Made by a program: the position numbers and the translations under genes
Shown here: positions 21,201 through 47,054 of the stretch, one piece after another
Position numbering within the stretch: position 1 is the stretch's first letter
Layout of the letters: every line of letters starts with the position of its first letter
NCBI RefSeq assembly: GCF_000186865.1
Contig: NW_008705565.1
Location: forward strand, 929,137 to 993,136
DNA from: Aureococcus anophagefferens
Lineage: Eukaryota; Sar; Pelagophyceae; Pelagomonadales; Pelagomonadaceae
Reading direction: 5' to 3'
Length of the DNA stretch: 64,000 nt
Notes under the pieces: model-generated
Database searches by the model: none
Told to the model about the DNA's origin: nothing
The model's input: only the letters and a program-made list of their open reading frames with translations

Positions 21201-21400
21201 GTCGTCATCAGGGCAGCAAAAGAGAGCGAAATTCCCAACTTCAAAGGCTCATATCTCGGCCGTTTTCCACTCGTTTTGGCTGATTTTTGGACGAGCGATC
21301 ATCTCTCGGAACGGTCTCGAAGCATGGATGCTTTTTCCGGCACGCGCGCGCGCGGAACACTCACGTTGAAGCGACGTTGAATCACCCTTTTGCTGCCCAG
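21201..21400 (+). mobile_element. Introner element, type A, 200-nt intron in the quinone oxidoreductase gene
   Basis: The element is 192 bp (21209-21400), with ends CAGGGCAGCAAAAG and CTTTTGCTGCCCAG. The flanking 8-bp target copies are GTCGTCAT (21201-21208) and GTCGTCCA (21401-21408), agreeing at six of eight positions. The two differences lie in the copy that is now intron sequence and so are free to drift. Splicing from GT at 21201 to AG at 21400 restores the family's conserved protein sequence in phase 0. Confidence 0.93.
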
Positions 21401-22096: not shown

Positions 22097-22792
22097 CTAC
22101 GCGAAGCAGTAGTAGCCGACGCCGAGCACGGCGCCGAGGGCCGCGACGACGACGACGGGGCTCGGCCCCGCGGCCTCGGGCGGCGGCGGCGGCGGCAGGT
22201 ACTCGAGGGACTTGTCGAACGTCTGGCCGTTGCCCGGCACGGTCCACTCGCAGACCTTGGGCACGCTGTACTTGGTCTTCGCTTGCAGCGCGCCGTGGAC
22301 GTCCTCGGCCCAGTCCGCCATCATCGTCGCCTTGTCCTCCTTCGAGAGCTTGACGTCGATCTCGCGGCGCTGCGCCATGCGCCGCGTGCCGCACTTCTCC
22401 AGGAGCATGTCCGTCAGGCGCGGGCAGTTCATGTAGGTGTCGAAGCGCGAGTCGCCGAAGCCGAGCACCGCGGACTGCATGCCCGCGAGCGGCACCTGGC
22501 GCACGCCGCTCGGGTCCATGGCGACGCTCCCCTTGTACAGCGCCTCGAGGAAGTCGTCGTAGTTCGCCGGCGCGTCGCCCTGGCGGAAGGACGACGTCGC
22601 GACGACGATGGCGTCGTAGGTCGACGCGATGTGCACGAGGCCCAGCGCCGCGGCGTCGTTGCCCTCCATGACGTCGCAGACCTTCCAGTTCACGCCGTCG
22701 CGCGCCATCCACTCCTTGGCGATGCGCTCGATGTTCGTCTTCGCCGTGTTCGACTCGCTGCCGTAGACCACGAGCACTTCGTCCATGGGCAT
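22097..22792 (-). CDS. Stand-alone flavodoxin-like protein with C-terminal tail anchor
   Basis: The product has 231 residues. The flavodoxin fold begins at once (VLVVYGSESNTAKTN for the phosphate loop) and continues through VATSSFRQGDAPANYDDF and AVLGFGDSRFDTYMN, all matching FMN-binding segments of the diflavin reductase or flavodoxin group. After a linker and a Pro run, a single hydrophobic helix (PVVVVAALGAVLGVGYYCFA) ends the protein, so it is probably tail-anchored with the flavin domain in the cytosol. It has no FAD/NADPH reductase domain and so must receive electrons from a partner; that is inference. ATG 22792. Confidence 0.8.
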   Translation of the reverse strand: MPMDEVLVVYGSESNTAKTNIERIAKEWMARDGVNWKVCDVMEGNDAAALGLVHIASTYDAIVVATSSFRQGDAPANYDDFLEALYKGSVAMDPSGVRQVPLAGMQSAVLGFGDSRFDTYMNCPRLTDMLLEKCGTRRMAQRREIDVKLSKEDKATMMADWAEDVHGALQAKTKYSVPKVCEWTVPGNGQTFDKSLEYLPPPPPPEAAGPSPVVVVAALGAVLGVGYYCFA

Positions 22793-22950
22793 CTTTGTCG
22801 TCGGCGGCCGCGGCGGCGCACGAGGTGGATGGGCAGCTCGTGGGCTCGGGCTCGATGACGCCGGCACCGCTGGCCGCGGGTCCGGCGCCGGGGTCCGTCG
22901 GCGACGTCGTCGCCGCGCCCGTCGACCGCTCACCTTCCAGATGCCCCATT

Positions 22951-25086: not shown

Positions 25087-25190
25087 AATGCTGGGTTGCC
25101 CGCCGCGCTAGAGGCTGCCAACGCTGAAACGGTCGGACGTGATCTACAACCTAGAAACGTTGAACTCGCCCGAAAAGCCGAGTTAAAGCC

Positions 25191-27110: not shown

Positions 27111-27364
27111 GGTCGGCGCGACCGAGGGCCCTAAACGGCGCGGCTTCCGGCCGGCTCTCGCATCGTCTTCGAGCGCGCTGATCGATACAACTTCACGACA
27201 TCTTCACCATGCAGATCATGTTACCCATGTTAACATTTGAACGCTGCCCGGAGGCAGCGCCGTCGGCTCTGCCCGACGCGGCTGCGCCAGCGCCGTCGGT
27301 GCGGCCGGCCGTCGGCGCGGACCCGCAGCGATCGCCGCGCGCGGCGGCCGCGCGCGCGCGCACC

Positions 27365-28759
27365 ATGGCCGACGGCGAGCGCCGGCCGTCCAACTCGTCG
27401 AAGACCATGCCGGCCAAGAAGGCCGGCGTGCCGCGCCAGGCCAAGCCCAAACCCAAAAAGTACGAGGGCCGGCCGAACACGGCAGCGGCGCAGGGCCGCG
27501 CCATCGCCTTCACGACCGAGGACGAGTTCATCGACCGCTTCAACGACCCGGCGGAGGACGACGGCACGCGCGGCATGCTCCGCCACTACACCGACGGCTT
27601 CCGCTACACCGTGTCCAAGCCGACGCCCAAGTTCCCCAAGAAGCCGAAGAACACGGGCATGTTCGGCTCCGCGAGCGCGCCGGCCCTCGACGCGCCGGAG
27701 CGCGTCTCCCTCGTGTCGGCGCCCGCGCCGCCGCCGAAGGTCGTCGTCGAGCGCGCCGAGCCGGCCCCTAAAGCTCCCGACGACGCCGACTCCGAGGAGT
27801 CGAGCGTCGCGAACAAGGCCATGACCCAGGTCGTCGCGCGCGTGAAGCTGTCCAAGGAGCGCCAGGCCGAGATCGACAAGGAGCGCAAAGACGCGCGGCG
27901 CGCGGAGCTGAGCAAGATGTCGCTCGGCGACGCGCTCCGCGAGCTCATGGCCGACTGGGCGTCGACGACGGAGGGCGGCGCCATCCTGCGGCACGTGCCG
28001 GCCCTCCCGCTGGGCATCTTCGACGACGCGGACCACGTCGAGGTCGCGGGCCGCGCGTGGAAGCGGCGGCCCAAGGGCAGCGCGAACGAGCGGTGGGCCG
28101 TGGCGCTGCGCAGCGACGACATCGGCGAGGAGGACGACTACAAGACGCACCACCACCACGCCGTCGACTCCTGGACGCGGCGTCTGGGCACCTGGTGCCC
28201 CTGCGTCGTGCTCACGCACGGCGACGAGTCGCGGCCCGAGTCGGCGCTCGCGCGGCTCCGCGCGACGGGCGAGGACCACCTCGTGGAGTGGGCGGACAAG
28301 TACAACGTCGAGGCGCGCGCGTCCTGGGCGGCCCAGGCCTGGGTGCCCGCCGTGGCCGTCGTCGGCGTCTGGCAGGACCGCTTCACGGCGGCCGCGCGGC
28401 TCCAGGGCGCGCTCGCGCGACGGGCCGCGTGCGAGGAGCGGCTGCGGTTGCGCCACTTCTTCGAGTCGGCGCCGGAGAGTGCCTTGGTCGTCGCGCCCTT
28501 GTTCGCCGACCTCTTCCCGAAGTTGCCGGACGCCATGCGGGCCATGATCGTCGACATGCCGCGCGCGCGGCTCTCCCGGGCCGAACTCTTGCCCGAGGTC
28601 GCCGCGCAGTTGCGGGAGATCGAGCGCGACTACGGCGTCGCCATGCGCGGCCACGTCTTCGGCGAGGTCGCCAAAGCGGGCCGCGACGGGGGCGGCCCCG
28701 CCGTGGACCGCTGGCTGCTCAGCTCCGACAAGACGCTGGACCTCGACGCGTTGGACGCC
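27365..28759 (+). CDS. Dynein heavy chain, exon 1 (N-terminal tail)
   Basis: Exon 1 encodes the first 465 residues if the ATG at 27365 (context CACCATGGCC) is used; an in-frame ATG at 27209 would add 52. It begins with a basic, Pro/Lys-rich disordered segment (GVPRQAKPKPKKYEGR), a short acidic stretch, and then helical sequence without a motif, as is usual for the variable dynein tail. It ends in GCC before a type B introner. Joining to exon 2 gives LDALDAVAVELAPGTTT in frame. No intron-like breaks occur inside the exon. Confidence 0.8.
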
Positions 28760-28970
28760 GTCGCCGTCTGTGTGGAATTCAACCACTGGTTCGGGTGGTC
28801 CTGACCAAACTCGAGAATTCTCTAGCTCGGTCAAATCGAAGTCGATTCGGCTGATTTTTGGACGAATCGATTGCTCTCGTCGAGTTCTCGAAGCACGGCC
28901 GAAGAGCTTGCGTCGAAACTGTCGCATATGCGCACATTGAAGTCGGGTTGAAGATTTGAATTCCACACAG
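28760..28970 (+). mobile_element. Introner element, type B, 211-nt intron between dynein exons 1 and 2
   Basis: The element is 203 bp (28768-28970) with perfect 15-bp inverted ends CTGTGTGGAATTCAA / TTGAATTCCACACAG, and perfect 8-bp target copies GTCGCCGT at 28760-28767 and 28971-28978. Splicing uses GT of the first target copy and AG of the terminal repeat. Without removal the frame hits a TGA at the end of FNHWFGWS. The sequence closely matches the esterase introner at 7996-8198. Confidence 0.95.
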
Positions 28971-31900
28971 GTCGCCGTCGAGCTCGCGCCGGGCACGACG
29001 ACCGCGGCGCTCGACGACTTCGTCAACGACGCGACGTTCCGCGACCGCGCGGCGACGCGGGCGCGCTACGACGAGGCGCGGTTCCGCCTCTGCGTGGCGT
29101 CGGGCGAGGCGTCGCTGCCCGCGTCGGCGCGCGCCGCGTCGGCGTACGTCGTCGTCGGCGACGCGAACCCGGCGGCGTCGCGCGTCGGCGAGGCCGCGAC
29201 GCCCCAGGCGCTCGACGCGTCGGGCAACGTCGTCCAGCTCCAGTACGGCGTGTCCGTGGGCGGCTACACGAAGCTGAGCGGCGCGCTCGCGGCCGGCGAC
29301 TTCGGCGACATGCCCGCGCCGTCGATCCTGGGCAGCGCGCCGGCGATGAAGGCCGTCCAGGTCGCCCAGGGCGTCAACGCGGATTTGGAATGCGAGTTCC
29401 TCAAGGTGACGCGCGACGCCGTGGTCTGCGTGTCGCCGTCGGCCTACAAGCGGCTCCACTTCGACGCGCTCGCGCGGTCGCTCGACGCGATCGAGCGCAA
29501 GTGGCCCAAGGCCGTCGCCGACGCCGTGCGCCACGCGCTGCTCGACGGGCCGCCGGAGTTCGACCCGACGGGCGTCGTCGCCGGCGACGGCTTCTTCGGC
29601 GACGAGCACCCGTCCGGCGGCGGCGCGAAGCCGTCGGCCGCGGCGGTCCGCGCGTCGCACCGCCAGGAGCCCCTGCGGCGGTTGCTCTTGCGCGTGCGCG
29701 CCATGATGTCGACGGAGCTGGACGTGATCCTACGGGCGGCCGTGGGCGACTACGTCGCGCTCGCGGAGAAGGCGTCCGACGACTCGGAGATCTTACGGCG
29801 GAAGACGTTCCTCAACAAGCCCTGGTTCCGCTTGGAATTAAAGATCGTGCCCCCGGAGGCGCCCGAGGAGGCGACGGAGACGCCCGCGCAGCGCGCGGCG
29901 AAGCGGCGCAAGTCCGTGCGCGCCTGGACCTTCGAGAAGATGGCGACGTTGAAGGAGGACGTCGGCGACGTCGAAGCGGCGCTCGCGGGCCCGCTCCACC
30001 GCATGTTCCAGGGCTGCAACAACATCCAGGACCCCTGCGGCTTGGTGCTCACGCAGCTCAAGTACGTGCCGCCGAACCCGATCCACAGCCCCTGGGACGG
30101 CAACATGCACCGCACGTCGGGCGTCATGGCGCCCGGCTGGGTGTCGTCCGCGCTGAGCCGCCTCGCGGCGTGCGCGACGACCGCGCGCAAGCCCGTGGAG
30201 CAGTACCTGAACCACGTCGGGACCGTGGTGCAGAAAGAGATCCGCGCGCGCGACTCCGCCGAGGCGTCGCAGATCCGCAACTACCGCGCGGTCCGCGAGC
30301 ACGACCTCACGGTCGAGGACGTCGAGGCGCTGAGCGCCGCGGGCGGCCCGCCGGAGGAGGAGGACGACGACGACGACCACGAGGGCGGCGACCAGTTTCG
30401 AGTGAAGGACGATTCGCTGGATAAGGAGGACGAGACGCCCGCGCTCCGCGCGGTCCGCGGCGCGATCACGCCCGGCGGCCTCGGGCCCGCGCCGCCGAGG
30501 CAGATCGTCGACGTCGGCGCCATCGCCAAGGAGCTGGAGTTGATGCGCCTGTCGGGCCAGCGCTGCGCCGACGGTCTGGACACGTCGCCGAACCGGGTGT
30601 GCGCGTTGGTGGAGGTCTCGGTGACCGCGGTGCGGGCCGAGCTCCTGAGGCAGCACGAGGAGCTCATGAACCAGATTCTGGACGCCCACGGCGAGCGCGC
30701 CTGCCAGATCGGCGAGTGGTGCGAGGAGCGCTGGAAGAAGATCCAGGCCGTGCTCGTCATCAACGCGAACGACGCGAGCACGACGGTGGCGCTCGAGACG
30801 TTCCTCGCGTGCCTGCCGAATTTCCTGGAGCCGTTGCTCAAGACGGCGACGGACGCCAACGAGCTCGCGCAGCTCTGCGCCCAGTACGGCCGCCCCCTGG
30901 AGCTTCTGGCGGGGTTGCAGGTGTCGCGCGCGGCGCTGAGCTGGGCGCCCAGAGTCAGATCCGCCGCGGACCGCGCGGCGACGGAGGCCGCGCGCGCGCG
31001 CAAGGAGCACGCGGAGCGGCTCAACGCGCTGCGCGACGCCTACGAGCACCGGCTGGCGGCCTGCGCCGCGCTCGTGCGCACGACGGCGCGCTACACGCCC
31101 CAGTTCCGCGGCGAGCGCGAGTTCCTCGGCGCCGCGGAAGAGATCGCGAGCCGCTACCACGACATGCACAAGTGCGACCACCGGCTGCGTTTACTGGTAG
31201 ACCAGTTGGTGAGATTGCGCAAAGCCGAAAAAGTCCTGCGCAAGTTCCCCCAGACGCCCAAGGCGCCGCTGCGGGCGCTGCGCATCGCCTTCGAGCCCCA
31301 CCTCCACGTCGCGCGCGCGTGCGAGCGCCACTTCCAGTTCGCGAACGCGCTGGACGCGCGGAAGCTCGGCGAGCCCGACGACGAGAAGGACTCGGGCGCG
31401 AAGCTCATGGCGTCCCTGCCGACGACGGTCAAGTGCGCGCGGCGCGCGCTCGAGCTCTTCGAGCGCCGCGTGGCCAAGCTCGAGGCGCGGAAGAAAGCGA
31501 AGAAGAAGGGCGGCTTCGCGAGCGCCATCGGCGGCGGCTCGTCGCCCGACGACGACGTCGACGCCTCCGAGGACGCGTCCCTCGTGGAGGCGGCGCTCAA
31601 GTGCGGCGCGCAGACCGTCGCGGAGCTGAGCGACGACGACGACGACCGCGGTAAGAAGAAGAAGCCGAAGAAGAAGGGCGACGAGGAAAAAAAGGCCGCG
31701 GACGACAGTTACGACCGGGAGAAGGAGTTCCCCGTCTGGGACAAGCTCGAGATCGCGCGCATGGTCGCGCGCATGGGCACGCGGCACCTCCAGCTCTGGG
31801 AGGGCATCGGCGACCTCGAGGTCGGCTGCGCGGACCCGCGGAAGAACGCGGACCGCCCCGCGGCGCTGCCGGAGCTGACCATCGTCCAGTTTTATGATCA

Positions 31901-34900
31901 CGGCGGCATGACAGCGCCCGACCTGCTCGGCGGGTCCGACGAGGTCTGGCTCACGCGCCAGGACAAGCTCTCGATGATCGAGATCTGGGGCGCGCGGCTC
32001 GAGGCGCGGCTCCAGACGGGCGGCATCGTCCAGAGCCGCAGGATCGGCGAGATCAACCGCTTCGAGGCCATCGTGAAGAACCGCTTCGAGATCGCGTCGC
32101 TCGCCGACGGCGTGCGGCGCGCGCGGCGCGCGCTGGCAGGCGCGCGGCGGCTCTGCGCGTTCTGGACGCGGCAGGCGCTGGAGATCCTACCCCACAAGGT
32201 GCCCAAGCCCCAGGACGACCCGAAGAAGCCGCGGCGCGTCGTCATCGCCGGGCCCAAGGTCGACAACGTCGAGCAGCTCCGGAGCTGCTTCGACGCGACG
32301 ATGCTCGATCTGGAGAGCTTGCGGTGCGAGCCCATGCCCATGGAGGACCCGCGGCGGTCCGCGAGCGCCAAGGCGCTGCGGGAGTTGGACGATCTGCGGA
32401 AGAATCTGAAGTTGGCGGAGACGACGCTCGACACGTGGATGTGCGTCCAGGAGCGGTGGATGAGCCTCTCGGGCGTCTTCGCCGCGGGCGGCGAGGAGCT
32501 CGCGCGGCAGCTGCCCGCGGAGAGTCGGCGCTACGCGCACGTCACGAAGCTGCTCGCCAAGGCCTGCAGCGCGGCGCGGGGCAAGGACGGCCTGGGCGAG
32601 CCCTACGTGATGTCGCTCCACGAGCGCGTGGGGCCCCTCGAGGACGCGCTGCGCGACGCGCTCGTCGACGTCGACGCGGTGACGCACGGCATGCGCGACT
32701 TCGTCGCCGCGCGGCGGTTGAGCTTCGCGCGCCTCTTCTTCATCCCCGAGCGCGAGCTCCTGGATCTGGTGCTCTCGGACAACAGCAGCCAGCCCGCGCT
32801 GGCCATCAAGCAGGCGAACGACTTCGCGGCGCGGTGCTTCCCGGGCGTGGACCGGCTGCGCTTCGACCCGACGAACGACTTCCGCGTCATCGCCATGGTC
32901 GGCGCCCTGCCGGCGCGCAAGGCCGTGCCGGCGGCGCAGCCCATGGACTACAAGGACGACGCGGAGATGCGCCTCGACGCGGCGCCGTCCGGGCGGCGCC
33001 TCGCCGACGACGACGGCGACTCGCTCGACGGCCACCTGGAGCAGGTCGGGTCGACGCAGTACGGCCGGGGGCGCCGCGGCGACGGGGCGCCCTTCGTCGA
33101 CGAATTGGTGCTCCGCGACGAGTCGGACGTGACCATCGCGGGCCGGCCGGAGATCTGGCTCGCGGAGCTCGAGAAGCACATGCGCTTCGCCATGCGCGAC
33201 GCGACGAAGCACGCGGCGCGGAGTCTGGACGCCATGCCCCGGGGCCAGTGGGCGCTGACCCACGCGCTCGCGCCGGGGTTGCTCGCCGCGCGCTGCGCGT
33301 TCAGCGCGGAGGCGGAGGCGCTGTTCCGCGACAAGGGCATCGTCGGGCCCCGGGAGCTGAAGCGGCGCCAGCTTTTACGCGTCGCGTCGCTGACGTTGGT
33401 ATTGCGCGACGCCGAGCTGCCGTTGGACCGCCTCGCGGCCGTCGCGTCGTTCGTGTCGCTCGAGCTCCACGGCCGCGACGTCGCGGAGGATCTCGTGGCC
33501 TCCGTGGCCGTCATGGCGTCGGACTTCACCTGGGCGCGCCACCTGCGCTTCTACTACGAGTCGCCGGAGGGCATTGTGCACGACGGCGGCCTGAACGGCG
33601 GCAAGGTCACCGCGGAGGCCGCGGTCGCGCGGCGCGTCTGCGGCGACGAGTACCGCGGCGGCGCGCCGCTCGCGCACGCGCACCTCGTCATCACGCCGAC
33701 GGCGGAGCGCTGCCTCCTGGGCTTGATGGCGGCGCTGCGGGGCGCCGGGGGCTGCGGCCTGCTCTACGGGCCGCCGGGCGGCGGCAAGTCGACGCTCGCC
33801 GCGGAGCTGGCGGTGGCGCTCGCCGCGCCGAGCTACCGCCTGGACGTCGCGGCCCGCGGCGCCGCGTCGCGGTCGTTGGAGCCCAAGAGCATGGGCCACA
33901 TCTTTAGAGGCGCGTTGGAGAGCGGCGCGTGGCTCCTGCTCGACGGTCTGGGCGCGGCGAGCCAGGACACGCTCAGCGCGTTGGGCCACCACCTCGGCGA
34001 GCTCCAGGCCGCGGTCCGCGTCCACGAGGGCGTCGACGCCGCCGCGACGGAGGACGGCGCGACGATGATGACGAACACGGGCCGCATGACCGTCGTCGCG
34101 CCGCGCGGCCGGGGAGCCCCGACGGGCGACGAGATCGACAAGGAGACGCAGCGCCAAAGCCTCGTGCCCCTCGAGCGGCGGCCGCCGCCGGGCTACGGCG
34201 ACGAGGGGGCCTGCGTCATCGGCGTCCTCGACAGCGACCCGTCCGGGCGCCAGGTCCCGCTGCCGGCGTCGCTCGGCGACCGGTTCCGGAGCGTGCACGC
34301 GCCGAAACCGCCGCTGGCCCTCGTCTGCGAACTGCTATTAGCGGCCAACGGCTTCACGCCCGGCGGCGCCAAGGAGGGCGGCCGCCGCTGCGCGACGGCC
34401 ATCGAGCTCCTCGGCGACTTGGACGACTTCGACACGACGTGGGCGTGCGCGGCCATCGGGAGCGACGCGGACCACTTCAAGACGCTCCAGGAGTCGGCGC
34501 CGGACGCCCACGCGCGGGGGCGCGCCAAGTGGGTCGCGGGCGCGTCCGCGGCGCGCGACAAGCCCCTGCGCATCGCGACGGCCTGCGCGCGCGTCGCCGC
34601 GAAGAGGCGCCACCGCATGGACGACGACGGCCTCGCGCTCGCGGGCGACGGGCCCCTGCTGCTCGACGCCTTCTACAAGGTCGCGCTGCCCTTGGTCGCC
34701 ACGGTGCCCCAGCGGCCGAACCGCAAGGGCCGGCGGCCCCAGGGGCCCGCGGCCGCGGACTACGACGAGCGCCGCGCGGCGATCGCGCTCTTGGAGGGCA
34801 TCGTCCGCGACGCCTTCGGGGAGGAGTGGATGTTCAAGACGTCGCTGACGACGGAGGGCGCCGTCATCGCCGCGGCGCCGCCGCGGCTCGAGCGGCCCTA

Positions 34901-37900
34901 CGTCGTCGAGCGCGCGCGGCGCGGCTTCGCGCTCGCGGGCTTCGACCCGAGGCCCGACGCGGTGGACCTGTTCGTCGAGGCGGACGCGGCGCTGGCGTCG
35001 CGCAACGCCTGCGCGATTCTAGGCCCGCCGGGCGTCGGCAAGTCGGCCACCGTCGAGGCCTTGTTTCGCGAGCACGAGGCGTCCTTCTCCGGCCGGCGGA
35101 CGCGGGCCGCGCGGCTCTACCGCGTCTATCCGCGGGCGCTGGACACGTCGGAGCTCTTCGGCGCGTTGGACCACCACGAGGTCTGGCAGCCCGGCGCCTT
35201 CGCGCGCGTCTTCGAGCTCCCCAAGGACGCGACGGACCGCCCGCGGCGCGCCCCGGCGGGGCAGGGCAACGAGGAGCGCGAGCCCGAGGCGCCGCCGGCG
35301 CTGGTCGTCCTCGACGGCCCGCTCCACTCGTCCTGGGCCGACGGCCTCTGCGCCGCCATCGACGCCCGCGTCGCCGAGGGCGGGCCCCACGCGACGGGCC
35401 GGTCCCTGTCGGCGTCGCAGCTGCCGGAGGTGCGGCCCCGGAGCTGCCCGCGCGTCGTCCTCGAGAGCGACGGCCTCGCGTCCGCGTCGCCCGCGCTCTG
35501 CGCGCGGCTCCACGTCGCACTCGCGCGGCGCCAGGACACGGGCTGCCAGATGCTGACGACCTTCGAGCGATTTTTGGGCGCCAAGACCATCGACTACGCG
35601 CCGAAGCTCGCGCCGAAGCTGGCCGCGGCGCTCGCGTTCCACGTGCCGTACGCGCGGAAGCTCCGGCGCGCGGTGACGGGAAGGCCCGCGCCGGGCGGCC
35701 GCGAGCGCCTCGACGGCGCCGCGGAGTGGTGCTGCGTGTCGACGGCCTTCGCCATCCTCGACGGACTGCTCGTCGCGCCGCTGCGGCCGCGCCACGGCAC
35801 GCCGATCCCGCCGGAGGACGCGTGCGAGCTCGCGCCGCAGGTCGCCGAGGCCGCGACGTGCTGGGCCGTGCTCTGGGCGTTCACGTCGTCGCTGGACGCG
35901 AAGCAGCGGCGCACCTTCGCCGCGTCCTACCACGCCACCATCACGGGCCGCGGGGAGCTCGTGGACCCCGCGCCGCCCGCGGGCGCGAGCCTCCTCGACT
36001 ACTGCCTCGACGTGGGCCGCAAGCGCTGGGTGCCCTGGCTCGACTGCCTGCCGGAGCGCGCGCGCAAGCCCGCGCGGCGGCCCAACGACCCCCTGGAGCT
36101 GCCCGCGGCGCCGCCGGGCCTCGCGGACCTCGTGCTGCCGACGCCCGCGGCCGTCGCGGCCGCGCGCCTCGGGCGATTGTGCGCGGTCGCGGCGCGGCGG
36201 CCGACGCTGCTCGTCGGCTCCTGCCACGACGGCGACGCCGTCGCCGGCGCCGGGGCGGCCCTCGCGGGCGCGCTGGGCTGCATCGAGGGCCCGGCGACGC
36301 TCTTCGACAAGGCCGAGCTCAAGCTGGAGGAGGAAGACGCCGAGGGCGACAAGGAGGGCGGGAGCCGCCCGGGGTCGACGCGCGCGTCGAGCCGGCCCGG
36401 GTCCACGGAGGCCAAGGCGCGGCCCATCGAGAAGAAGCAGAAGCCCAAGGAGGTGCCAACCCAACAAAAGGGCGACATGTGCCCGCCCGCGCTGCGGGAC
36501 CTGCACGTCGCCGTCGTCGACGCGAGCCCGGCGACGGCCGCGGGCGACGCGCGCTGCGCGGTCGAGAGCCGCCTGGAGCGGAAGCAGCGCAACTGCTTCG
36601 GCGCCGCGCCGGAGACGCGATTGCTCATCCGCATGGACGACATGAGTTTGCTGCCGAGCGACGACGCCGTCGCCGCGCGGTCGACGTGGGTCCCGGGCCT
36701 CGCGTCGGAGCTGCTGCGCCAGCTCGTCGACGACGGCACGTGGACCGCGGGCGAGCTGAGCCCCATGGCGCTCGACGACTCGGAGACGCGGCCGGGCGAC
36801 GTCGTCGAGGTCGAGGACGTGGGGATCTTGGCCACGGCCACCGACGGCAAGGCGCTCGACCGCGTCTGGGCGAACGCGGCGGACCGCGACGGCTGCTGCC
36901 TGGACCGCGTGGCGCCGCGGCTGCTGCGCCACTTCGCCGTCGTGCGCGTGGAGGACGCCGACGCGAACGCGCTGTCGACGGCCTTCGCGTCCATACTCAG
37001 AGACCACGTCGGCGGCGCGGGTTTAGGCGGGCGGTCCGTGCCCATCATCGGCAAGGCGACGACGCGCCTCGTCAACGCCTGCGCGGCGGCGGCGCGCAAC
37101 GACCTCATGGCGCGCGCGTCGGCGACGACGCCCGTGACGGCCGCGGCGCCGCGCGCGCTGCTCCTCGCGGGCGCGCTCGCGTACGGCCGCGCGGACGTCG
37201 TCCGGGTGCTGCAGGGCTTTCTAGGCGCCCAGCCGGAGGACCTGGGCAACGACGCCGCGGCCATGACGCGGCTCTGGGCCCACGAGGCGCGGCGCACGCT
37301 CGGCGACCGGCTGCCGGACCACGACGAGGGCCTGGACCGCCTGAAGTTCGAGGACCTCCTGAAGGACGCGGCCGCGGGCGCGTCCGGCTCGAACCCGTTG
37401 GGCGGCGACATGTGGGAGAACGTCGTCCCCCCGGACGAGGAGCTCGATTATGCCGACCTGCCGAGCGTGCGCCTCCTGGGCGACCGCAAGGACGACGACG
37501 GGAACACGGTCGCGACGGACGGCGCGCAGACGTTCGCGCCGGGCGGCCACCGCGACAGCGGCGTCTTCGACGGCGAGCTCGGCGCCGCGCCGGACAGGAT
37601 CGAGGACGGCGTCGACGACATCGGCAAGGACGAACACGCGGAGGAGCTCCCGGAGGAGGGCGAGGTCAGGAGCCGGCGCACGCAGGTCATGGACGACGCG
37701 ACGCACGAGCACAGCCACAGCGTCGACGTCGCGGACCACCACGACGACGAGGCCATGCGGAGCCACAAGACGCGGTCGACCGTGGGCGCCATCGTGACGC
37801 CGTCGCCCGAGCGCGTCGCCTACGCGCGCCTCGAGGGCGGCGACCGCGCGCGGCGCCAGCTCGTGCGCGAGGCGCGGTCCGTCGAGGCCGCGTTCGCGAT

Positions 37901-38525
37901 CACGCAGTCCATGGTGCCCCCGGCGCTCTTCGAGACGGGCGTCGTCGACGTGTTGCGGATTGCGAGGGCTTTACGGCGGGCCGCGGGCCACGTGGTCCTC
38001 CTGGGCCCCGGCGCGTCGGGGCGGCGCACGCTCGCGCGGCTCGCGGCGCGCGTCGTCGGCGGCGAGATCTCGCAGACGTCCGAGCTCATCTGCGGCCAGA
38101 CGTTGAGCCGGGCGCGGGGCGGCGCGGGCATGGGGCCCAAGGACATGAACGGGTCCTTCTGCATCGCCCTGGCGCGGTTCCTCGGGCGGCTCGGCGAGGT
38201 CTGGCGGCCGCCCGCGCGCAAGGTCGACAACGCGGCCGAGGACCGCAAGGCCGTCGAGGCGCACAAGAAGTACGTCGAGGCCATGGCCGCCAAGGGCCAG
38301 TGGCTCGCGGACAAGTCCGGCGCGCCGGCGCCGGCGCCCATGATGCCCGAGAGCCCGCCGCCGCGGCCCGAGGCGCCCGCGGCGGACCTCTTCGCGCCGG
38401 ACCCCGAGCCGCCGCTCGCGCTTCTGTTAGTGTGCGACGACGAGCTCGGCGACGACGAGGCCGCCTGGCGCGCGCTGGGGTCGGCCATGAACAGCGGCGA
38501 GGCGCCCCTCTTCTTCGACACCAAG
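28971..38525 (+). CDS. Dynein heavy chain, exon 2 (tail, linker, AAA1-AAA4)
   Basis: Exon 2 is 9,555 bases with no stop, giving residues 466-3650. The linker is recognisable (LDTWMCVQERWMSLSGVF, QLPAESRRYAHV, FARLFFIPERELLDLVL). AAA1 has Walker A GPPGGGKST at about residue 2065 and the family block PKSMGHIFRGALESGAW, but Walker B reads LLLDGLG, so the catalytic Glu is Gly (codon 33945-33947). AAA2 has GPPGVGKSA at about 2483 and VVLDGPLHSSWADGL, a good match. AAA3 reads LLVGSCHDGDAV where a P-loop GxTGxGKS is expected (about 2877), so it probably does not bind nucleotide, although ELLRQLVDDGTW follows as in other dyneins. AAA4 has GPGASGRRTL at about 3477. Acidic and Lys-rich linkers between modules make the protein larger than usual. 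Confidence 0.93.
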
Positions 38526-38725
38526 GTCGGCGACGGGGCAGCACAAGAGAGCGAAATTCCCAACTTCAAAGGCTCCTATCTCGGCCGTTTTCCACTCATT
38601 TTGGCTGATTTTTGGACGAGCGATCATCTCTCGGAACGGTCTCGCAGCGTGGGCGCTTTTTCCGGAATGCGCGCGCGCGGAACACTCACGTTGAAGCGAC
38701 GTTGAATCACCCTTGTGCTGCCCAG
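38526..38725 (+). mobile_element. Introner element, type A, 200-nt intron between dynein exons 2 and 3
   Basis: The element is 192 bp (38534-38725) with ends CGGGGCAGCACAAG and CTTGTGCTGCCCAG. Perfect target copies GTCGGCGA lie at 38526-38533 and 38726-38733. Splicing GT-AG gives FFDTKVGDSKMHEF across the junction in phase 0. It is the same length as, and closely similar to, the copies at 21201 and 40937. Confidence 0.95.
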
Positions 38726-40936
38726 GTCGGCGATTCGAAGATGCACGAGTTCGCCGCGGAGGACCGCGCCGCGCGCCTCGGCGGCGGCGGCGACGAGCTC
38801 TTCGACGAGGTCGCCGGCGAGATCACCGACGCCGCCGCCGAGGCGGAGAAGACGGCGCTGGAGGCGTCGCGGACGCGCCGCGGCGACGACGCGAGCGTCG
38901 GCAGCCAGTCGGGCACGTCCGTCGCGTCGTTCAACGAGGCCAAGGCCAAGCGGCTGCTCCAGGAGGCGGTCCAGGGCACGGGCGGGCCCAAGGCGCCCGT
39001 CCGCGCCCTGACGCTGCTGGCGCGGTCCGAGCGCGTGCGCAAGCGCCTGCGCGTCATTTTATGCGCGACGGTCGCGGACCCGGCCGCGTCCGCGGGCTCA
39101 GGCGCGGACGCGCACCACCGCCTCGCGCGCGTCGTGTTGCGGGAGCCGCGCTGCTTCGGGTCCGCGACCTGCGTCATCCGCATCTCGCCCTGGACGCGCG
39201 ACGCCTACCTGGCCATCGCGCGCGCGGCCTTTGCGGGCTGGCTCTCCGCGGAGGACGAGGTCGACGTCAAGCAGGACGAGGACAACGAGCACGCGGAGTC
39301 GGACCGCGAGGAGGTCGAGCTGCGGAAAGTGCTGTGCTTCGCCTCCGCCGACGCCGCCGTCGACTTCCACCAGGCCGCCGCGCGCGAGTACGCGGCGCTC
39401 GCGCGCGCGACGGGCGGCGCGGCGTTCGTGGCCACGCCCGCGACGTTCGTCGCGTTCGTCCGCGACGCGGCCAAGGCGCGGCGGCGCCAGCTGTCCGAGA
39501 CGACGCAGCGCCTGGACCGGCTGAAGCGGTCGCTGACGACCTGGCGCGCCGCGCGCGTCGCCGCCGCGGAGCTCAAGAAGCTCACGGGCGGCGCCGCGGA
39601 CACCGCGGAGCGGGAGAAGGCCAACTTCGCGAAAGCGAAAGCGGAGCGCGAGTCCATGGAGGACCGCGCCGACGAGCTCCAGGGCCAGCTCCAGCAGGCG
39701 CTCAAAGACGGCGACACCGACGGCATCGACCGCATCAAGGCCGAGCTCGGCGCGCAGTCGAAGCGCATGGACGACCTCGACGCGGCCGCGAAGCAGGCCA
39801 AGGAGACCGCGCGGCAGCAGCAGGAGGGCGGCGGCGTCGCCCAGGCGCGCTGCGCCGCCGCGGAGGCGTTGGCGAACGCCTGCGCCGCCGACGCCATCCG
39901 CTGGAGCGACGAGGAGGCGAAGCTCAAGGCGCAGCGCGCGTCGTCCGCGCGGCACGCGCTCCTCGCGGCCGCGGCGGCCAACTACTGCGCGCAGCTGCCG
40001 CGGCCGCGGCGCGCGACGCTCTGGAAGCATTGGTTGGATGCCTTGGACGAGGCCCTCGTGGAATACCCGGAAGCTTTGGAGCTGAGCCAGCACGCCGCGG
40101 AGGACGACGGCGGCGAGGGCGCGGCGGATTTAGTGGAAGAATTCGCGATGCGCGAGCCGCCGACGCTCAACGAGTCGGAGCTCGCGGAGCAGGACGAGAA
40201 GGCGCTCTTCGTGTTGTCGCGGTCCCACCTGTCCGTGCTCGAGTGGCGCCTCGCGGGGCTCCGCGCGGACGCGCCGGGCTCCGGCGTCAACGCGGCCGCG
40301 ATGATGCTCGGCCGCCGCTGGCCGCTTTTAGTGGACCCGGAGCGCGTCGCGCGGCGCTTTATACTCAGGGCGGGCCGCGTCACGGCGTCGCGGCGCGGCA
40401 AGCGGCCCCAGGACGACGCGCGGCGGCCGGACGCGGGCGTCGTCGCCGCGCGGCTCCGCCACCGCCGCTTCACGGCGGCCTTCGAGGAGTCGGTGCGCAC
40501 GGGCACGTGGCTCATCATCGAGGGCCTGGGCGAGCCGACGGAGAGCGACCCGCGGCTCACGGAGAGCGACCGCCTCGAGCTCCACGGCGCGGCGCTGCCG
40601 AGCCGCGACGACGGCTGGGCTTTGCCGCCCGAGGTCGCGTACGCGGTCGCCGCGGGCCGGTCCTTGGTGGAGCGCGGGGCCCACGCGGCGCTCGCCACGG
40701 TCCCGCTCCTCGGCGAGCCCGTGCCCGTGCCCGTGGACGGCAACTTCCGCGTGTTTTTATCGACGGACGTCACGGACTGCTCGAAGATCCCCACGCGGCT
40801 GCACGGCGTCTGCGCGGTCGTCGACGCGCGGTGCTCCGCGTCCGCCGCGGGCGCCGAGGACGCCGCGGCCCACCTCCTGTGGGACGTGCTCGTGCCGTCG
40901 GAGCTCCCGCAGGTCGCGCGGTCCATCGCGCGGCTC
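38726..40936 (+). CDS. Dynein heavy chain, exon 3 (AAA4 end, short stalk, AAA5)
   Basis: Exon 3 encodes residues 3651-4387. The end of AAA4 is clear (CVIRISPWTRDAYLAIAR). The first stalk helix begins as in other dyneins (AKARRRQLSETTQRLDRLKR), and the second returns at AADAIRWSDEEAKLKAQ, the equivalent of the conserved RW motif. Only about 128 residues separate these landmarks (39512-39898), all Lys/Glu/Ala/Gln-rich helix with one apparent turn (KDGDTDGID). Typical dyneins have about 290, including a globular microtubule-binding domain of about 125 residues, which I cannot find here. AAA5 follows (RRWPLLVDPERVARRFI; GTWLIIEGLGEPTESDPRL; NFRVFLSTDVTDC). Confidence 0.92.
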
Positions 40937-41136
40937 GCGGGGAACGGGGCAGCACAAGAGAGCGAACTTCCCAACTTCAAAGGCTCCGATCTCGGCCGTT
41001 TTCCACTCGTTTCGGCTGATTTTTGGACGAGCGATCATCTCTCGGAACGATCTCGAAGCACGAATGCTATTTCGGGAACGCGCGCGCGCGGCACACTCAC
41101 GTTGAAGCGACGTTGAATCACTCTTTTGCCGCCCAG
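40937..41136 (+). mobile_element. Introner element, type A, 200-nt GC-AG intron between dynein exons 3 and 4
   Basis: The element is 192 bp (40945-41136) with ends CGGGGCAGCACAAG and CTTTTGCCGCCCAG. Perfect target copies GCGGGGAA lie at 40937-40944 and 41137-41144. Because this target starts with GC, the intron is GC-AG. Splicing gives IARLAGKRAAHTRQC in phase 0, continuous with the dynein sequence. Confidence 0.93.
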
Positions 41137-44100
41137 GCGGGGAAGCGCGCGGCGCACACGCGGCAGTGCATCACGAAGGAGAACACGCTCTTCTGCGTGC
41201 TCATCGCCTACGCGCCGCAGAAGGACGAGGAGCGCTTCGGCGGCGATTTGAGCGACGCGGCGACCTTCGCCATCAAGGACGAGCTGCGGAAGACCATGGG
41301 CGCGCCGCGGACGCCCGTGACGCTCGTCGCGAATCGCAAGGAGGCGCACCTCCTCGGCATCGCCGCGCGGGGCACGCGGGGGCTGGGCGTGTCCGCGGCG
41401 CTGCTCGACAACCGGGACCTCATCGCCATGGCGGAGCAGGCGAGCGCCGACGCGGCGACGAAGCGCCAGGAGCTGCGGGAACTGAACGCGAAGGACTTCG
41501 AGGGCCGCCGCGCGTGCGAGCCGCTCCGCGACGTCGCGAGCCACGCGACGACGCTCTTCGGCGCGCTCGCGGCCCTGGAGCAGGCGCGGGCCCAGGGCTG
41601 CTACCACGTGGGCCTCGGCGCCTTCGCGCGGCGCCTCCGGCGCGTGTCCAAGGAGATGCGCGAGCCGAAGCGGCTGCCTCCGCAGCCGCGGCCGCGCGAC
41701 GTCGAGGCCGAGGGGCCGGACCCGGACACGCAGGCGCGCGTCAAGGCGCTCAAGGCGGCCATGTCCCTCGGCGCCTACGACCAGTCGAAGCGCTCCATCT
41801 TCTCCCAGGACCACCTCGTGCTCGGCGTGCACCTCGTCGTCGCGTTGCGGCGCGACAAGCAGGGCAAGGCCGTGCGCAACACGCTCGACGACGGCGACAC
41901 GGCGACCGTCGGCGACGCGTTAACGGTCGAGGGCGACGCGACGCTGTCGCCGCGGTCCCAGGACAGCGGCGCGCGCGAGAGCGGCGACGACGACGACGAG
42001 GGCTCCGTCGGCACGAAGTCGACGTGGCGCAAGCGGCTCCCCTGGAAGTGGGACGAGGACGAGTGGCGCTACGTCGTCACGGGCGAGACGCCGTCGACGG
42101 CGGACCCCATGGAGAGCGCCTGGGTCGGCTTCGCGGACAAGCGCGGCGACAAGGGCGCGGCGAAGTCGCGCAAGGACGAGGCGCGGCGGCGGACGCGCAT
42201 GTCCGTCGCGAACCGGGGCCAGGACGCCGGCGCCGGGTCGTCGGCGAACCTGGGCGCGACGGGCGCCGCGGAGGTGGGCTGGTGGGTCTTCTCCGGGGAT
42301 TTAAGGGAGCGCGCGAACGACGCGTCCACGCTGCCGGCGCTGGAGGAGCTGCCCGACTCCCTCGAGAGCGCGTCGAGCTTGCTCGAGTGGAACCGGGTCA
42401 TCGAGTCCAAGTTCCCCCACAAGGAGGACTTCCCGCCGGCGTTCCGCGAGCTGACGCCGCTCCAGCGGCTCTGCGTGATCCGCGCGCTCCGCTTCGACGC
42501 GCTCACGGTGGCCCTGCGGGACTTCGTGAACGAGGAGCTGCGGGGCCACGACGCGGCGGTGACGCAGATCGCGGGCGACCGGGGGAGGTTGGCCCTCGAG
42601 GACGCGCACGAGGACGCGGCGCCGAACGACGGCGACCGCGACTTCGACAAGCTCGCGGGCAGCGGCGACGTGCCGCCGCCGATCCTGCTCAACCTCGCGG
42701 CGGACGCGTCGGACCCGGCGGAGACGCTCCAGGCCATGGCGAAGAGCGCGGGCGTGGCGCTCATCTCCGCGGGCGCGAACGGCGTCGACGCGGCCGCGGC
42801 GCTGCGGCTGATCTCGAACTGCGCCGCGGACGGCAGCTGGGTCCTGCTCCAGCAGTGCGAGCTCGCGGGCGCCGACTTTCTGCGCCAGCTCGCCTGGCAC
42901 GTCTGCGACCAGCCGTCCGTGGGGCGGGGCATCGGCGGGCGCTGCGAGGACACGGCGCCGACGTTCCGGCTCTGGCTCACGGCGCGCCTGCCGGGCGGCG
43001 GCGCCGCGAAGCGCGACTCGCTCGCGGCGCTGTGCCTGCGGGCGCCCTTCGCCGACGGGACGCTGCGGCTGCCCGGGGCGCTGGCGAGAGAAGCGATCAC
43101 GGTCGTCGTCGAGCCGCCGCGCGGCTGCCGCGGCGCGATCGCCGTCGCGTCGGAATCGGGTTTTCTGGACCGCGAGGCGCTGGGCGGGAGCGACGGCAAC
43201 CGGGCGCGCCTGTTCCTGAAATGCGTTTTGGCCTTTGGGATCATCCAGGAGCGGCGCGCGCGGCTCGGCGCGCTCGGCTGGGTCGGCGGCGGCGGCCCGC
43301 GGCCCGCGCCCGGGTCCGTCGACGAGCTGCGGGCCGCCGCGTTCCACTTCGCGGCGGTCTGGCCCTTCACGGGCTTCGCGCCCAAGGCCGTCGTCGTCGT
43401 GCCCAAGGGCGGCAAGAAGCAAAGGGGGAGCCTGCTCAAGGCCGCGGGCCGCGTCGCGCGCGAGACGCGCGGGGGGCCCGGCGGCGGCGGCGCGCTCGCG
43501 GCCGTCGGTCTCGGCGGGCCCGCGGCGAACCCGCATCTGGCCGCGCTCGCGGACTGCGTCGCCGGCCCGGCCGTCGCCGGAAGCTCCGTGGCGGGCAACG
43601 AGGGCGACGCGCGCGTCTTCGCGGCCGTCGTCCGCGCGCAGCTTTTGGGCGACGGCGGCTACGAGCCTAGGAAGCCCTTGTTCGCCCTGCCGCCGGGCAC
43701 GACGGACGTGCGCTGCCGCGAGTGGAAGACGCCCGAGGACCGCACGGGGCCCGGGCGGCCGCCGGACCGGTGCGCGGCGCGCGTCTTCGCGGCGGCCGCC
43801 GCGGTCGTGCCCGACGCGCTCGAGGGCGACGCCGTCGGCGGCAACGCGGCGATGAAGGTCGTGTCCAACGCTCTGGTGGCCGAGGACGTCTGCACGGCCA
43901 TCGCGCGCCTCGAGGAGATCCTGGGCAACGCGGGCGCGGACGCGCTCCTGCTCAACGACACGCGGCTCGCGGCGATCTTGGACGAGCTCGAGGAGACGGT
44001 CGGCCGCGACTTCGGGTCCTGGTTGGACGCGGGGCACCACCGCGTGCGCGAGGACATGAAGGCGCTGACGGACGCGCGGCGGCGGCGGGACTACGACGCC

Positions 44101-44705
44101 GCGCTGGCCTACGCGCGGCGCACCAAAACCAAGAAGCCGCCGCCGCCGGAGTACGGCACGCCGCTCGACGACTGCTCGCCCTGGGACGTCATTTTGTTAA
44201 ACGAGCGCCAGCTGCTCCGGCGGACGCTCGTGCGGGCGACGCGCGACGTCGCCGACGTGCGCGCGGCGCTGGCCGGCGTCGTCGTCCCCGGCGCGGACCG
44301 CGGCCGCCTGGGGGCCGTCGTCGGCGACCTGCGCGCGCTGAGCATCCCCGAGGCCTGGCGCGCCATGTCGGCGACGGTCTTGGTCGCCGACATCCAGGGC
44401 TGGCTCCGGGAGATGCAGCAGCGCTGCGCGACCTTCGACGCGTGGCTCGAGAACTGCGACCCGCCGGCGCCCTTGCACCTGCCGCACGTCGCGCGGCCGC
44501 GGCAGCTGTTCCTCGCGACGCGGAAGCGCGCGGCGGCGCTCTGGACGCTGCCCCTCGACGACGTCTGGCTCGACTCTTACGTGCCCCGGGACGGCGAGGA
44601 CGCTGACTCCTTCGCCATCGACGAGGAGGAGCTCAACGCGCAGTTCGTGTCCTTCGAGGACGGCGACGGCGAGGTGCAGACCGCCGAGGCCGACGACGGC
44701 GACGG

Positions 44706-44744
<39 letters not shown>

Positions 44745-45309
44745 GGGCGAATCGGGGCCGTCGCGGCCGCAGACCGCGGGCAGCGGCGCGGAGAAGAACA
44801 AGAGCGACAAGGGGTCGCGGCCGTCGACGGCGGCGGACACGACGCGGCCGTCGACGGCGGCGGAGCCCATGCCCCTCGAGAAGGCCAATTTGACGCTGCA
44901 CGTCGCGGGCGTCGTCCTCGAGGGCGCGCGCTGGGACGCGGACGCGCGGGGCCTCGCGGACGTCGACCGGCCGGACCAGCCCTTCTCGAAGCTGCCGCCC
45001 TTGGCCTTTGAGCCTCTCGCGGACGCGAGCTTCTCCGACGTCGACGACGCGCCGTTGCGCCAGTTCCGGCCGGGCGTCTACCGCTGCCCCATCTACGCGA
45101 CGACGCTCCGGTCGCGGCAGCCCCTCTTCTGGGTCTACCTCGACTCGAAGCGGCCGTCGACGCCGCGCGCGCTCCTCCCGAGCGAGGCCGTCACGCGCCA
45201 GGAGCGCGCCGCGACGCACATCCTCGACCAGGAATTCTGGACCCTGCGCGGCGTCGCCGCCGTGCTCGCCGTGCCCGAGGGCGCGAGCGCGCCCGCGGAC
45301 TACGACTAA
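41137..45309 (+). CDS. Dynein heavy chain, exon 4 (AAA6 and C-terminal domain)
   Basis: Exon 4 gives residues 4388-5777. It holds the AAA5-AAA6 linker (TLFCVLIAYAPQKDEERF region), AAA6 (VFSGDLRERANDASTLP, LTPLQRLCVIRALRFDALTV, GSWVLLQQCEL, FRLWLTARLPGG), and the C-terminal domain (RATRDVADVRAALAGVV, IPEAWRAMSA, then GVVLEGARWDADARGL and YRCPIYATTLRSRQPLFWVY). The C-terminal match to the GARWD and CPxYxT blocks is typical of axonemal rather than cytoplasmic dynein heavy chains. A long acidic run near 44690-44760 is an insertion. The stop is 85 bases from the convergent gene. Confidence 0.92.
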
Positions 45310-45394: not shown

Positions 45395-46732
45395 TCAGAA
45401 GGGGCGGCCGAGGAGCCGGTCGAGCTCGCCCCAGTCGATGCCGACGAGGCAGGGCCCCGCGCCGGGGTTCGGGTTCGCGTCGAGCGGGTGGTCGATGAAG
45501 ACGTTCTGCGACGGCGGGAGCACGCGGCCCGGGGGCTTGGGCGCCTTCGGGCCGCGGCTCGCCGGCCGGGGCGCCGCCGCCGCCGGCGCGGCGGTCGCGG
45601 CCGCGTCGATGCGCGGCGCGTAGGAGCCCTTGGCGCGCGCGAGGCGGTCCTTCCAGTCCTGGGCGACGGTGAAGCGGGCCTCGCCGAAGCCCTTGCCCGT
45701 GCGCGCGCCGCTCGCCTTCTTCGACGCCTCGCGCGCGTCGACGTGGGGCCGCGGCGCCGCGCGGCGCGGCGGCTGCGACCCGCCGTACTGGCCGAAGTCG
45801 CCGCCGAAGCCGCCGTAGTCCGGCGCGTCGAGGCCGTACTGGGGCCGGCCCTGGGGCTGGCGCGGGGCCTGGCGGCCGTAGTTGGGCTCGTAGAAGCCGC
45901 GCTGCGGCGGCTGCTGGGGCTGCTGGGGCTGCTCGCCGTACTTGGCCTGGACGGCCTCGGCCGCCATGACGTCGAACTCGTCCGCCTTGAACCGGAGGAC
46001 CTCGTGCGACGCCGCGAGGAAGTCGTAGAAGGCGTCCTCGCGCAGCGCCATGCCCAGGCCCGTGCGGAGCTGCTTCGCCGAGGACCGCACGGTGCCCGGC
46101 GCCATCGTCGCCGCCGCGGCCTCCAGCAGACGCGGCGTCTGCTCGTCGACCCACTTCTTGCCGCGGCCCCGGCGCGCGCCGACCTTGTCGAAGAGCTTGA
46201 TGATGAGCGCCGTCGCGATGGTGCCCGCCGTCGAGCAGCAGTTCCAGAGCGTCGCCGCCGTCTCCTGGAGCGCCATGAACGAGCTCGCGAACTCCGCGTC
46301 CTCGGCCTCGGCCTTGAGCCGCGCCTCGCGCTGCGCGTCCGTCTCCGCGGGCTCCTCGGGCTCGCCCTTGCTCTCCTCGAAGCCGTAGTCGTCGTCGTAG
46401 TCGTCGCCGCCCTTGGACTCCTCGACGCCGCCCTTGGGCCGCGGGGGCGGCCGCTCGGGTTCCGGGAAGTACTCGTCGTCGCTGCCGTCGTCGTACGCGT
46501 AGCCGTCGTCGCTGCCGTCGTCGCTGCCGCCGCCGCCGTCGTCGCTGCCCCGGCAGTCGAGCATGGCCCGGGCGAGGGCCAGGCCCTCGGCGTCGCAGGT
46601 CGACAGGTCGCTGAGCTGCTGCAGGAACTCGTCGGCCGTGCCCTGGGCGCTGATGGTCGTGAGCATCTCGATGCGCGCGTCCGTGTCCCGGCACACGGCG
46701 AAGTCGACGGGCGCGTTCTGGACCATGGTCAT
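45395..46732 (-). CDS. Hypothetical acidic/Gly-Gln-rich protein
   Basis: The product has 445 residues with the ATG at 46732 (a second at 46726). The N-terminal region is followed by an Asp/Gly run (about 65-85), a Lys/Glu segment, a possible helical domain (FASSFMALQETAATLWNCC ... LIIKLFDKV, about 145-240) and a Gln/Pro/Tyr/Gly-rich disordered section (about 265-320). A short conserved-looking C-terminus (VFIDHPLDANPNPG, GIDWGELDRLLG) ends it. I recognise no domain. The start is divergent from the dynamin-like gene. Confidence 0.65.
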   Translation of the reverse strand: MTMVQNAPVDFAVCRDTDARIEMLTTISAQGTADEFLQQLSDLSTCDAEGLALARAMLDCRGSDDGGGGSDDGSDDGYAYDDGSDDEYFPEPERPPPRPKGGVEESKGGDDYDDDYGFEESKGEPEEPAETDAQREARLKAEAEDAEFASSFMALQETAATLWNCCSTAGTIATALIIKLFDKVGARRGRGKKWVDEQTPRLLEAAAATMAPGTVRSSAKQLRTGLGMALREDAFYDFLAASHEVLRFKADEFDVMAAEAVQAKYGEQPQQPQQPPQRGFYEPNYGRQAPRQPQGRPQYGLDAPDYGGFGGDFGQYGGSQPPRRAAPRPHVDAREASKKASGARTGKGFGEARFTVAQDWKDRLARAKGSYAPRIDAAATAAPAAAAPRPASRGPKAPKPPGRVLPPSQNVFIDHPLDANPNPGAGPCLVGIDWGELDRLLGRPF

Positions 46733-46750
46733 GGTAGGCAACAGTTACTT

Positions 46751-46896
46751 CTCGTCGCTGGCACGGCACGGCCCGGGCTGCTTGGCCCACAAACTCCGGG
46801 CGAGGGTCGGGGGTCGACGGCCGGCGACGTCGGCCTTTTCGGCGTCGGCGGTAGAGAGAAGTTGTCTATCGTCGTCGCTGGCACGGGCTGCTTGGC
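46751..46896. repeat. Imperfect direct repeat in the divergent leader region
   Basis: The sequence GTCGCTGGCACGG followed by GGGCTGCTTGGC occurs at about 46754-46786 and again, with an internal 8-base deletion, at about 46872-46896. It lies in the 320-base space between the starts at 46732 (minus) and 47055 (plus). It may be a duplicated promoter segment. Nothing else was seen in this space. Confidence 0.6.
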
Positions 46897-47054
46897 AAGC
46901 CGAGGGCAAAGGTGAAGAGGGGTCGGAGGAGCCGTCAACGCGGTGGTCGAGCAAAAAGCTCACGGTTGCAAACCTGTGCCCGCGCCGGCCTGTGCCCGCG
47001 CCGACGTCGCACCGACGCCCGCTCCGACGCGCCAACGCCCGCGCCGAGCTTACG

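Follow-up and report, generated by a model that had tools for sequence, protein, structure and literature searches.

A conserved dynein heavy chain with a headless stalk and, probably, a dead motor in pelagophyte-type algae

Microtubule binding through the head of the stalk is what makes dynein a motor, and stepping is driven by the nucleotide cycle of AAA1, as is established in dynein biochemistry. A heavy chain without this head was described in the case of DNAH12, which is stated in PMC11949491 to be the only human DNAH without a microtubule-binding domain (MTBD). As published there, DNAH12 is an axonemal dynein described without MTBD and is in this respect like the gene reported here, but the deletion is absent from the deposited chains 9fqr_PW and 8j07_g1, in both of which an ordinary stalk was matched over 343 query residues by 340 chain residues in one stretch. 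As both deposited chains checked carry a full-length stalk, DNAH12 was not borne out as a headless precedent and is not taken as a true one. A term search of the main text of PMC6629372 (eLife 2019), which is cited by PMC11949491, did not find DNAH12. Apart from the DNAH12 claim, no natural headless, stalkless or inactive dynein was found among the matches listed in the open-licence literature, and the same literature returned no paper for "dynein heavy chain" together with "pelagophyte" or "Pelagophyceae".

Two further systems are of relevance. The vertebrate DNHD1 is regarded as an orphan or ghost dynein and a possible future pseudogene in a dynein nomenclature review (PMC8754002), while DNHD1 mutations were reported to cause sperm-flagellum defects (PMC9916431). 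An engineered counterpart is found in PDB entry 3vkg, a cytoplasmic dynein motor with truncated MTBD, which like the present gene product has a ring and a stalk without head and was recovered at Foldseek rank 30 (see below); it differs in being artificial and derived from a working motor. We take this motor to be from Dictyostelium, and it presumably keeps its catalytic residues.

The stretch analysed, referred to as the window, comprises 64,000 nucleotides (C5:929137-993136) of a 49.05-Mb eukaryotic assembly. Three long overlapping frames on the plus strand (28941-38705, 38609-41116 and 41020-45309), together with an upstream first exon, make up a dynein heavy chain gene of four exons (Table 1), the spliced coding sequence of which runs from the ATG at 27365 to the stop at 45309 with 5,777 codons and no internal stop. 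The start was chosen by its likeness to the start of P0004, the close homologue described below, and an alternative in-frame ATG is found at 27209. Exon 1 gave no match in a Pfam scan and was recognised by tblastn, in which residues 102-411 of P0004 matched 27764-28765 of the window (E 5e-27). In the exon-2 frame, for which 25 of 28 Pfam families were listed, DHC_N2 (2.1e-23), AAA_6 (1.7e-14), AAA_7 (8.4e-9), Dynein_AAA_lid (2.1e-8) and AAA_8 (2.8e-6) were observed, and exon 4 contains Dynein_heavy (D6; 1.1e-8) and Dynein_C (1.5e-21). The PF12781 match of exon 3 is located at C5:969377-969673, that is 40241-40537 of the window, with 32.3 bits. In all, DHC_N2, AAA_6, the lid, AAA_7, AAA_8, AAA_9, Dynein_heavy and Dynein_C score above their Pfam cut-offs, and the features expected of the dynein heavy chain superfamily, a tail and linker ahead of the AAA ring and a Dynein_C domain, are present. 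The best solved-structure match of the exon-2 frame is 8glv_Me, a chain of an axonemal repeat (E 8e-44). Judged from its domains and its structural and protein matches, the gene is a dynein heavy chain by descent. Its neighbours in the window are a dynamin gene (Dynamin_N, Dynamin_M and GED; 46503-49337) downstream on the same strand and, upstream, a minus-strand frame with a flavodoxin domain (1.4e-12; 22097-25150).

The introns are of two kinds. One introner family of about 200 bp has three copies in the window, one at 21210 and the other two forming introns 2 and 3, in which the 8-bp target-site duplications (TSDs) provide the 5' splice site; introners of Aureococcus were described in PMC9860276. 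Intron 1 is bounded by the terminal inverted repeat CTGTGTGGAATTCAA and a duplicated flank, GTCGCCGTC.

Table 1. Features of the dynein heavy chain gene, in window coordinates.
Feature	Position	Strand	Description	Basis
Exon 1	27365..28759	+	N-terminal tail (465 codons)	tblastn; frame and splice checked
Intron 1	28760..28970	+	211 bp; mobile-intron type other than the introners of introns 2 and 3	
Exon 2	28971..38525	+	3,185 codons; tail, linker (DHC_N2), AAA1-AAA3, first part of AAA4	Pfam
AAA1 Walker A	33768..33794	+	GPPGGGKST, intact	alignment, P-loop scan
AAA1 Walker B	33933..33953	+	LLLDGLG, with Gly in place of the catalytic Glu (canonical motif CFDEFNR)	alignment
AAA2 P-loop	35022..35045	+	GPPGVGKS, intact	alignment, P-loop scan
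AAA3 Walker A position	36210..36236	+	LVGSCHDGD, P-loop lost	alignment, P-loop scan
AAA4 Walker A position	38004..38030	+	GPGASGRRT, Lys replaced by Arg	alignment
Intron 2	38526..38725	+	200-bp introner copy, GT-AG, TSD GTCGGCGA	
Exon 3	38726..40936	+	737 codons; remaining AAA4, stalk hairpin, AAA5	AAA_9 2.5e-7
Headless stalk	39506..39904	+	QRLDRLKRSL to IRW, 133 residues, predicted helical hairpin	
Hairpin turn	39707..39724	+	DGDTDG; P0004 has DADYDE at the aligned place	
AAA5	40229..40900	+	LSVLEWRLAG ... RRWPLLVDP ...; approximate outer limits	PF12781
Intron 3	40937..41136	+	200-bp introner copy, GC-AG, TSD GCGGGGAA	
Exon 4	41137..45309	+	1,390 codons and stop; remaining ring and C-terminal domain	Pfam, P0004 homology

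A first-pass annotation of this DNA had claimed a stalk of about 128 residues between two landmarks, QRLDRLKRSL and a motif of the second helix, against about 290 in ordinary dyneins, and had suggested that the globular MTBD is missing. Both landmarks were located as it had given them in a single open exon, QRLDRLKRSL lying at nt 39506-39535 and IRW at nt 39896-39904 of the continuous open exon 38726-40936. With the base Arg and the Trp behind coil 2 as end points, the stalk is 131 residues long in the window gene and 135 in P0004, whereas the same measure gave 289-317 residues in 11 other heavy chains of the genome, one of which (L015) is itself a divergent heavy chain. For this comparison 13 of at least 24 loci with a match to PF12777 (the MT domain) were extracted and 11 measured, L017 and L020 being left out as no base motif had been specified for them; the 11 loci outside the extracted set are mostly partial matches. 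The estimate was thus close to the measured value, and the observation is confirmed, with support for the missing domain from the length, the Pfam results and models without a globular tip.

In the exon-3 frame, Pfam returned no MT domain, only AAA_9 and an insignificant match to HAUS1 (E 0.81), and the window gene is not among the PF12777 matches (at least 24 scored) of a profile search of the genome. Divergence by itself could leave a domain without a Pfam match; the loss is shown chiefly by the length. P0004 illustrates this point, as its precomputed Pfam list is also without AAA_8 and Dynein_heavy; a missing match can therefore reflect divergence, while the measured length is unaffected. 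The stalk of about 290-320 residues with PF12777 match that characterises an active motor is accordingly lacking in the window gene. When an ordinary stalk of the genome (355 aa) was compared with solved structures, it matched 80 distinct PDB sequences at E <= 1e-5, and in the best 60 of these 80 the matched stretch of the chain fell short of that of the query by at most 19 residues and exceeded it by at most 7, so that no headless chain is among these 60.

Structure prediction, the check that had been proposed beforehand, gave the short helical hairpin without globular tip that was anticipated. In the AlphaFold2 model obtained from the single sequence (202 residues; mean pLDDT 71.5, pTM 0.47), a helix over residues 5-95 is followed by a two-residue break (96-97) and by helices 98-134 and 137-158, with block pLDDT of 83-95 at residues 61-130 and of 52-71 at 31-60 and 131-160, towards the base. 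The alignment-based model of AAA4-stalk-AAA5 (532 residues) has a helix at 33-123, a break at 124-125 and a helix at 126-180; with mean pLDDT 53 and pTM 0.34, and block pLDDT of 73-85 over residues 51-180, only the stalk part of this predicted structure is usable. In the alignment behind it the first 30 query residues are scattered, for which the single-sequence model serves as control, and alignments with a short query scattered over long rows were left out of modelling. The two models agree on a hairpin without globular tip and place the break within DGDTDG, in line with the earlier description of the region as charged helix with one turn. A Foldseek search with the 532-residue model gave 37 matches at E <= 0.001, all of them entries titled dyneins or axonemal doublets, with low TM-scores (0.16-0.28, query-normalised). 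The stalk is accordingly predicted to be a short helical hairpin without head.

The same headless stalk had been suggested to be worth seeking in related pelagophytes, and it was found in P0004, a protein of Pelagophyceae sp. CCMP2097 with the generic name "dynein heavy chain and region D6 of dynein motor-domain-containing protein". When the exon-2 frame (3,254 residues) was searched against about 5.8 billion proteins, 7,977 candidates were scored and 46 proteins were returned. P0004 stood first with 861 bits (E 4.7e-253, 30% identity) and the next protein had 137 bits. Because this nearest protein comes from a pelagophyte, the genome analysed is taken to be that of a pelagophyte or a close relative. 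By the precomputed Pfam column, which is also the source for the domain content of P0004, PF12777 is present in 43 of the 46; it is missing from P0004 and from two shorter proteins (2,222 and 2,645 aa), in which AAA_9 is lacking too. A search with residues 1400-5460 of P0004 gave four matches including P0004 itself, the best other at 156 bits, and hence no further close relative, and a search with exon 3 among proteins of about 405-1,290 aa found none at E <= 0.001 among 7,993 scored. The family is thus known from two sequences, P0004 being the one close homologue in the protein searches.

BLASTP of the window protein without exon 1 aligned P0004 in five segments of 30-39% identity covering 86% of this query, with 34% in the segment that begins in the stalk region and ends close to the C-terminus. 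The two stalks are alignable end to end with 42 of 137 columns identical (31%), and their global score of 144 compares with a mean of 1.25, a standard deviation of 13 and a maximum of 44 in 1,000 shuffles. As to the buttress, the AAA5 coiled coil by which an active motor touches its stalk, a helix-like segment after AAA5 was seen by eye in P0004. Both frames are of full length (5,777 residues in the window gene and 5,460 in P0004). These observations bear on the claim that the gene is intact, without a stop, and therefore maintained. The 5,777 codons are indeed free of internal stops, yet this carries less weight than it seems to: because the third codon positions of the spliced coding sequence are 97% G+C and one other frame has only 8 stops, the open frame is a weaker proof of maintenance. 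Conservation in P0004, with the same losses and a homologous short stalk, is the stronger argument for a maintained gene.

P0004 is like the window gene in the motor domain too. Motor motifs were compared in an alignment of 19 heavy chains, 14 of them canonical rows, with counts made by hand. All 14 canonical rows have the Asp-Glu of AAA1 Walker B; in its place stand DG in the window protein and TG in P0004 (LLLTGVS), which, unlike the window gene, has lost the Asp as well; three DNHD1-type rows read EN, DC and DS. The AAA3 P-loop lysine, likewise found in all 14 canonical rows, is lost in the window protein and in P0004 (LLFGCGRGGDAA), the alignment being gapped in this region so that the placement rests on the preceding LLVG/LLFG. 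The exchange of Lys for Arg in AAA4 is shared by 8 of the 14 canonical rows. A P-loop pattern scan found exactly two P-loops in either protein, at AAA1 and AAA2. Among the features of an active motor, the window gene therefore has the Walker A of AAA1 and has neither the Walker-B Glu of AAA1 nor the P-loop of AAA3. Binding of nucleotide to AAA1 and AAA2 of the window protein is probable, while the AAA1 cycle behind stepping should not run in it, as judged from dynein biochemistry; loss of the Walker-B Glu alone is no proof of absent ATP turnover.

The position of the two algal proteins was examined in a tree of the motor (2,057 columns, stalk excluded) under LG+G4 and a C20 mixture. They grouped together (100) on a very long branch beside the DNHD1 rows and not inside an axonemal class, and the grouping of the algal pair with DNHD1 received 99-100% in quick searches with SH-aLRT as the only support measure, on the longest branches of the tree. 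Of the DNHD1 rows, P0047 is so assigned by name and the fish proteins P0048 and P0049 by grouping only. Constraining the pair with 11 axonemal rows cost 15.4 log units with p-AU 0.058; an axonemal origin is therefore not rejected, and long-branch attraction is a real possibility. DNHD1 is like the window gene in having lost the AAA1 Walker-B Glu in 3 of 3 aligned rows; its position adjoining the algal pair may result from such attraction. It is unlike the window gene in that it has a PF12777 match and aligns through the MTBD region.

In the genome, an AAA_9 profile gave at least 28 matches at at least 21 places (counted by hand), and a PF12777 match lies near 18 of 21 of these; the exceptions are the window gene and two dynein-like genes, C24 (L052 and L054) and C69 (L051 and L055). 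Like the window gene, C24 and C69 have no MT-domain match and have degraded AAA motifs, the AAA1 and AAA4 P-loops being gone by eye while that of AAA2 is seen in both and that of AAA3 in C69. They are unlike it in being apparently stalkless, and they are not especially close to it. From the base motif to the Trp only 49 (C24) and 57 (C69) residues are counted between hand-placed landmarks that are less secure than those of the window gene, which suggests that the stalk is apparently absent altogether. The two are identical at 409 of 1,232 columns (33%), and the only significant stretch between C69 and the window gene is the AAA5 core (16 of 43 residues). The AAA_9 whole-protein score is 22.8 bits for C24, under the Pfam cut-off of 27.4 bits, and 28.5, just over it, for C69. 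Besides these, L015/L037 (C23), L017/L042 (C26) and L020/L049 (C46) are weakly scoring divergent heavy chains with stalk and head, the stalk segments of C26 and C46 being near-identical by eye. AAA_6 or MT-domain matches that stand alone, away from the 21 AAA_9 places (C2:348778-349212, C6:1313711-1314070 and C35:367552-367746), may be fragments or remote relatives.

Taken together, we consider it probable that the gene encodes a genuine, conserved, motor-dead pseudo-dynein of pelagophyte-type algae, most likely serving as a static arm or scaffold. We hold with high confidence that this dynein heavy chain is real and conserved, without a head and dead as a motor, and with moderate confidence that it is a structural subunit, a role that we infer. 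The gene keeps a long tail, the linker, the AAA modules, the P-loops of AAA1 and AAA2 and the C-terminal domain, while the MTBD, the catalytic Glu of AAA1 and the AAA3 P-loop are lost in it and in P0004. Such a protein would neither step on microtubules nor run a normal ATPase cycle, and the nucleotide bound by AAA1 and AAA2 would serve no end but to stabilise the ring. The tail would dock the protein, and the ring and hairpin tip would contact a protein partner and not the neighbouring microtubule, so that the whole, probably located with the axonemal dyneins, would act as a static arm or a scaffold for assembly. The flagellum is the most plausible site because the same genome has 18 heavy-chain places with an MTBD match. 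Of the structural, force-transmitting or regulatory roles initially envisaged, a structural or regulatory one is now favoured more strongly because the AAA1 Glu and the AAA3 P-loop are lost in both proteins, and a force-transmitting one survives only in a passive sense.

The gene could instead be a relic in gradual decay after its motor function was given up, a fate already proposed for the vertebrate DNHD1, which PMC8754002 calls a possible ghost gene or future pseudogene. Such decay would agree with its rapid evolution and with the several motor motifs that are gone, and 30% identity between the window protein and P0004 would also fit weak constraint. We nevertheless regard this as unlikely, because at that identity a drifting gene is not expected to keep a full-length frame in each of two genomes, stalks that are homologous and almost equally long, and the AAA1 and AAA2 P-loops in both.

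Quite unlikely, in our estimation, is a second proposition, in which the hairpin tip has become a new binding head (a Ca2+- or protein-binding turn of the type DxDxD) and the protein senses or regulates instead of serving as a passive scaffold. An acidic turn, DGDTDG or DADYDE, lies at the predicted tip, is alignable between both proteins and may resemble Ca2+-binding loops; it could be a contact or ion-binding site, a speculation from two sequences, and short turns of acidic residues occur widely. Heterodimers are the working form of some dyneins, and an active motor reaching the microtubule through a partner chain would accord with the intact AAA1 P-loop; this is highly improbable given that neither protein retains the catalytic Glu of AAA1 or a P-loop in AAA3. 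An artefact, with the code for the head dropped during assembly or sitting in an exon that was overlooked, can hardly be maintained: no stop interrupts the exon, the prediction folds the hairpin back on itself with no head at its end, and a collapse of the stalk region, very unlikely because two genomes share one short homologous stalk, was rejected on the independent CCMP2097 genome, whose equally short stalk is alignable over its whole length.

Returning to the motor-dead pseudo-dynein, we note tentatively a wider picture that we stop just short of calling probable: pelagophyte-type algae could possess a set of motor-dead heavy chains in which the grip on the microtubule was lost in at least two independent ways, by reduction of the stalk to a closed hairpin and by loss of the stalk, and in which the AAA ring would be a purely structural or regulatory platform in the flagellum. 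In the window gene, a heavy chain without the head, the AAA1 Glu and the AAA3 P-loop is kept as an 18-kb gene and at full length in a pelagophyte. This would show that evolution can preserve a dynein ring for a use other than as a motor, and it would provide an independent case bearing on whether DNHD1 and other motor-dead dyneins are vestigial or still do a job.
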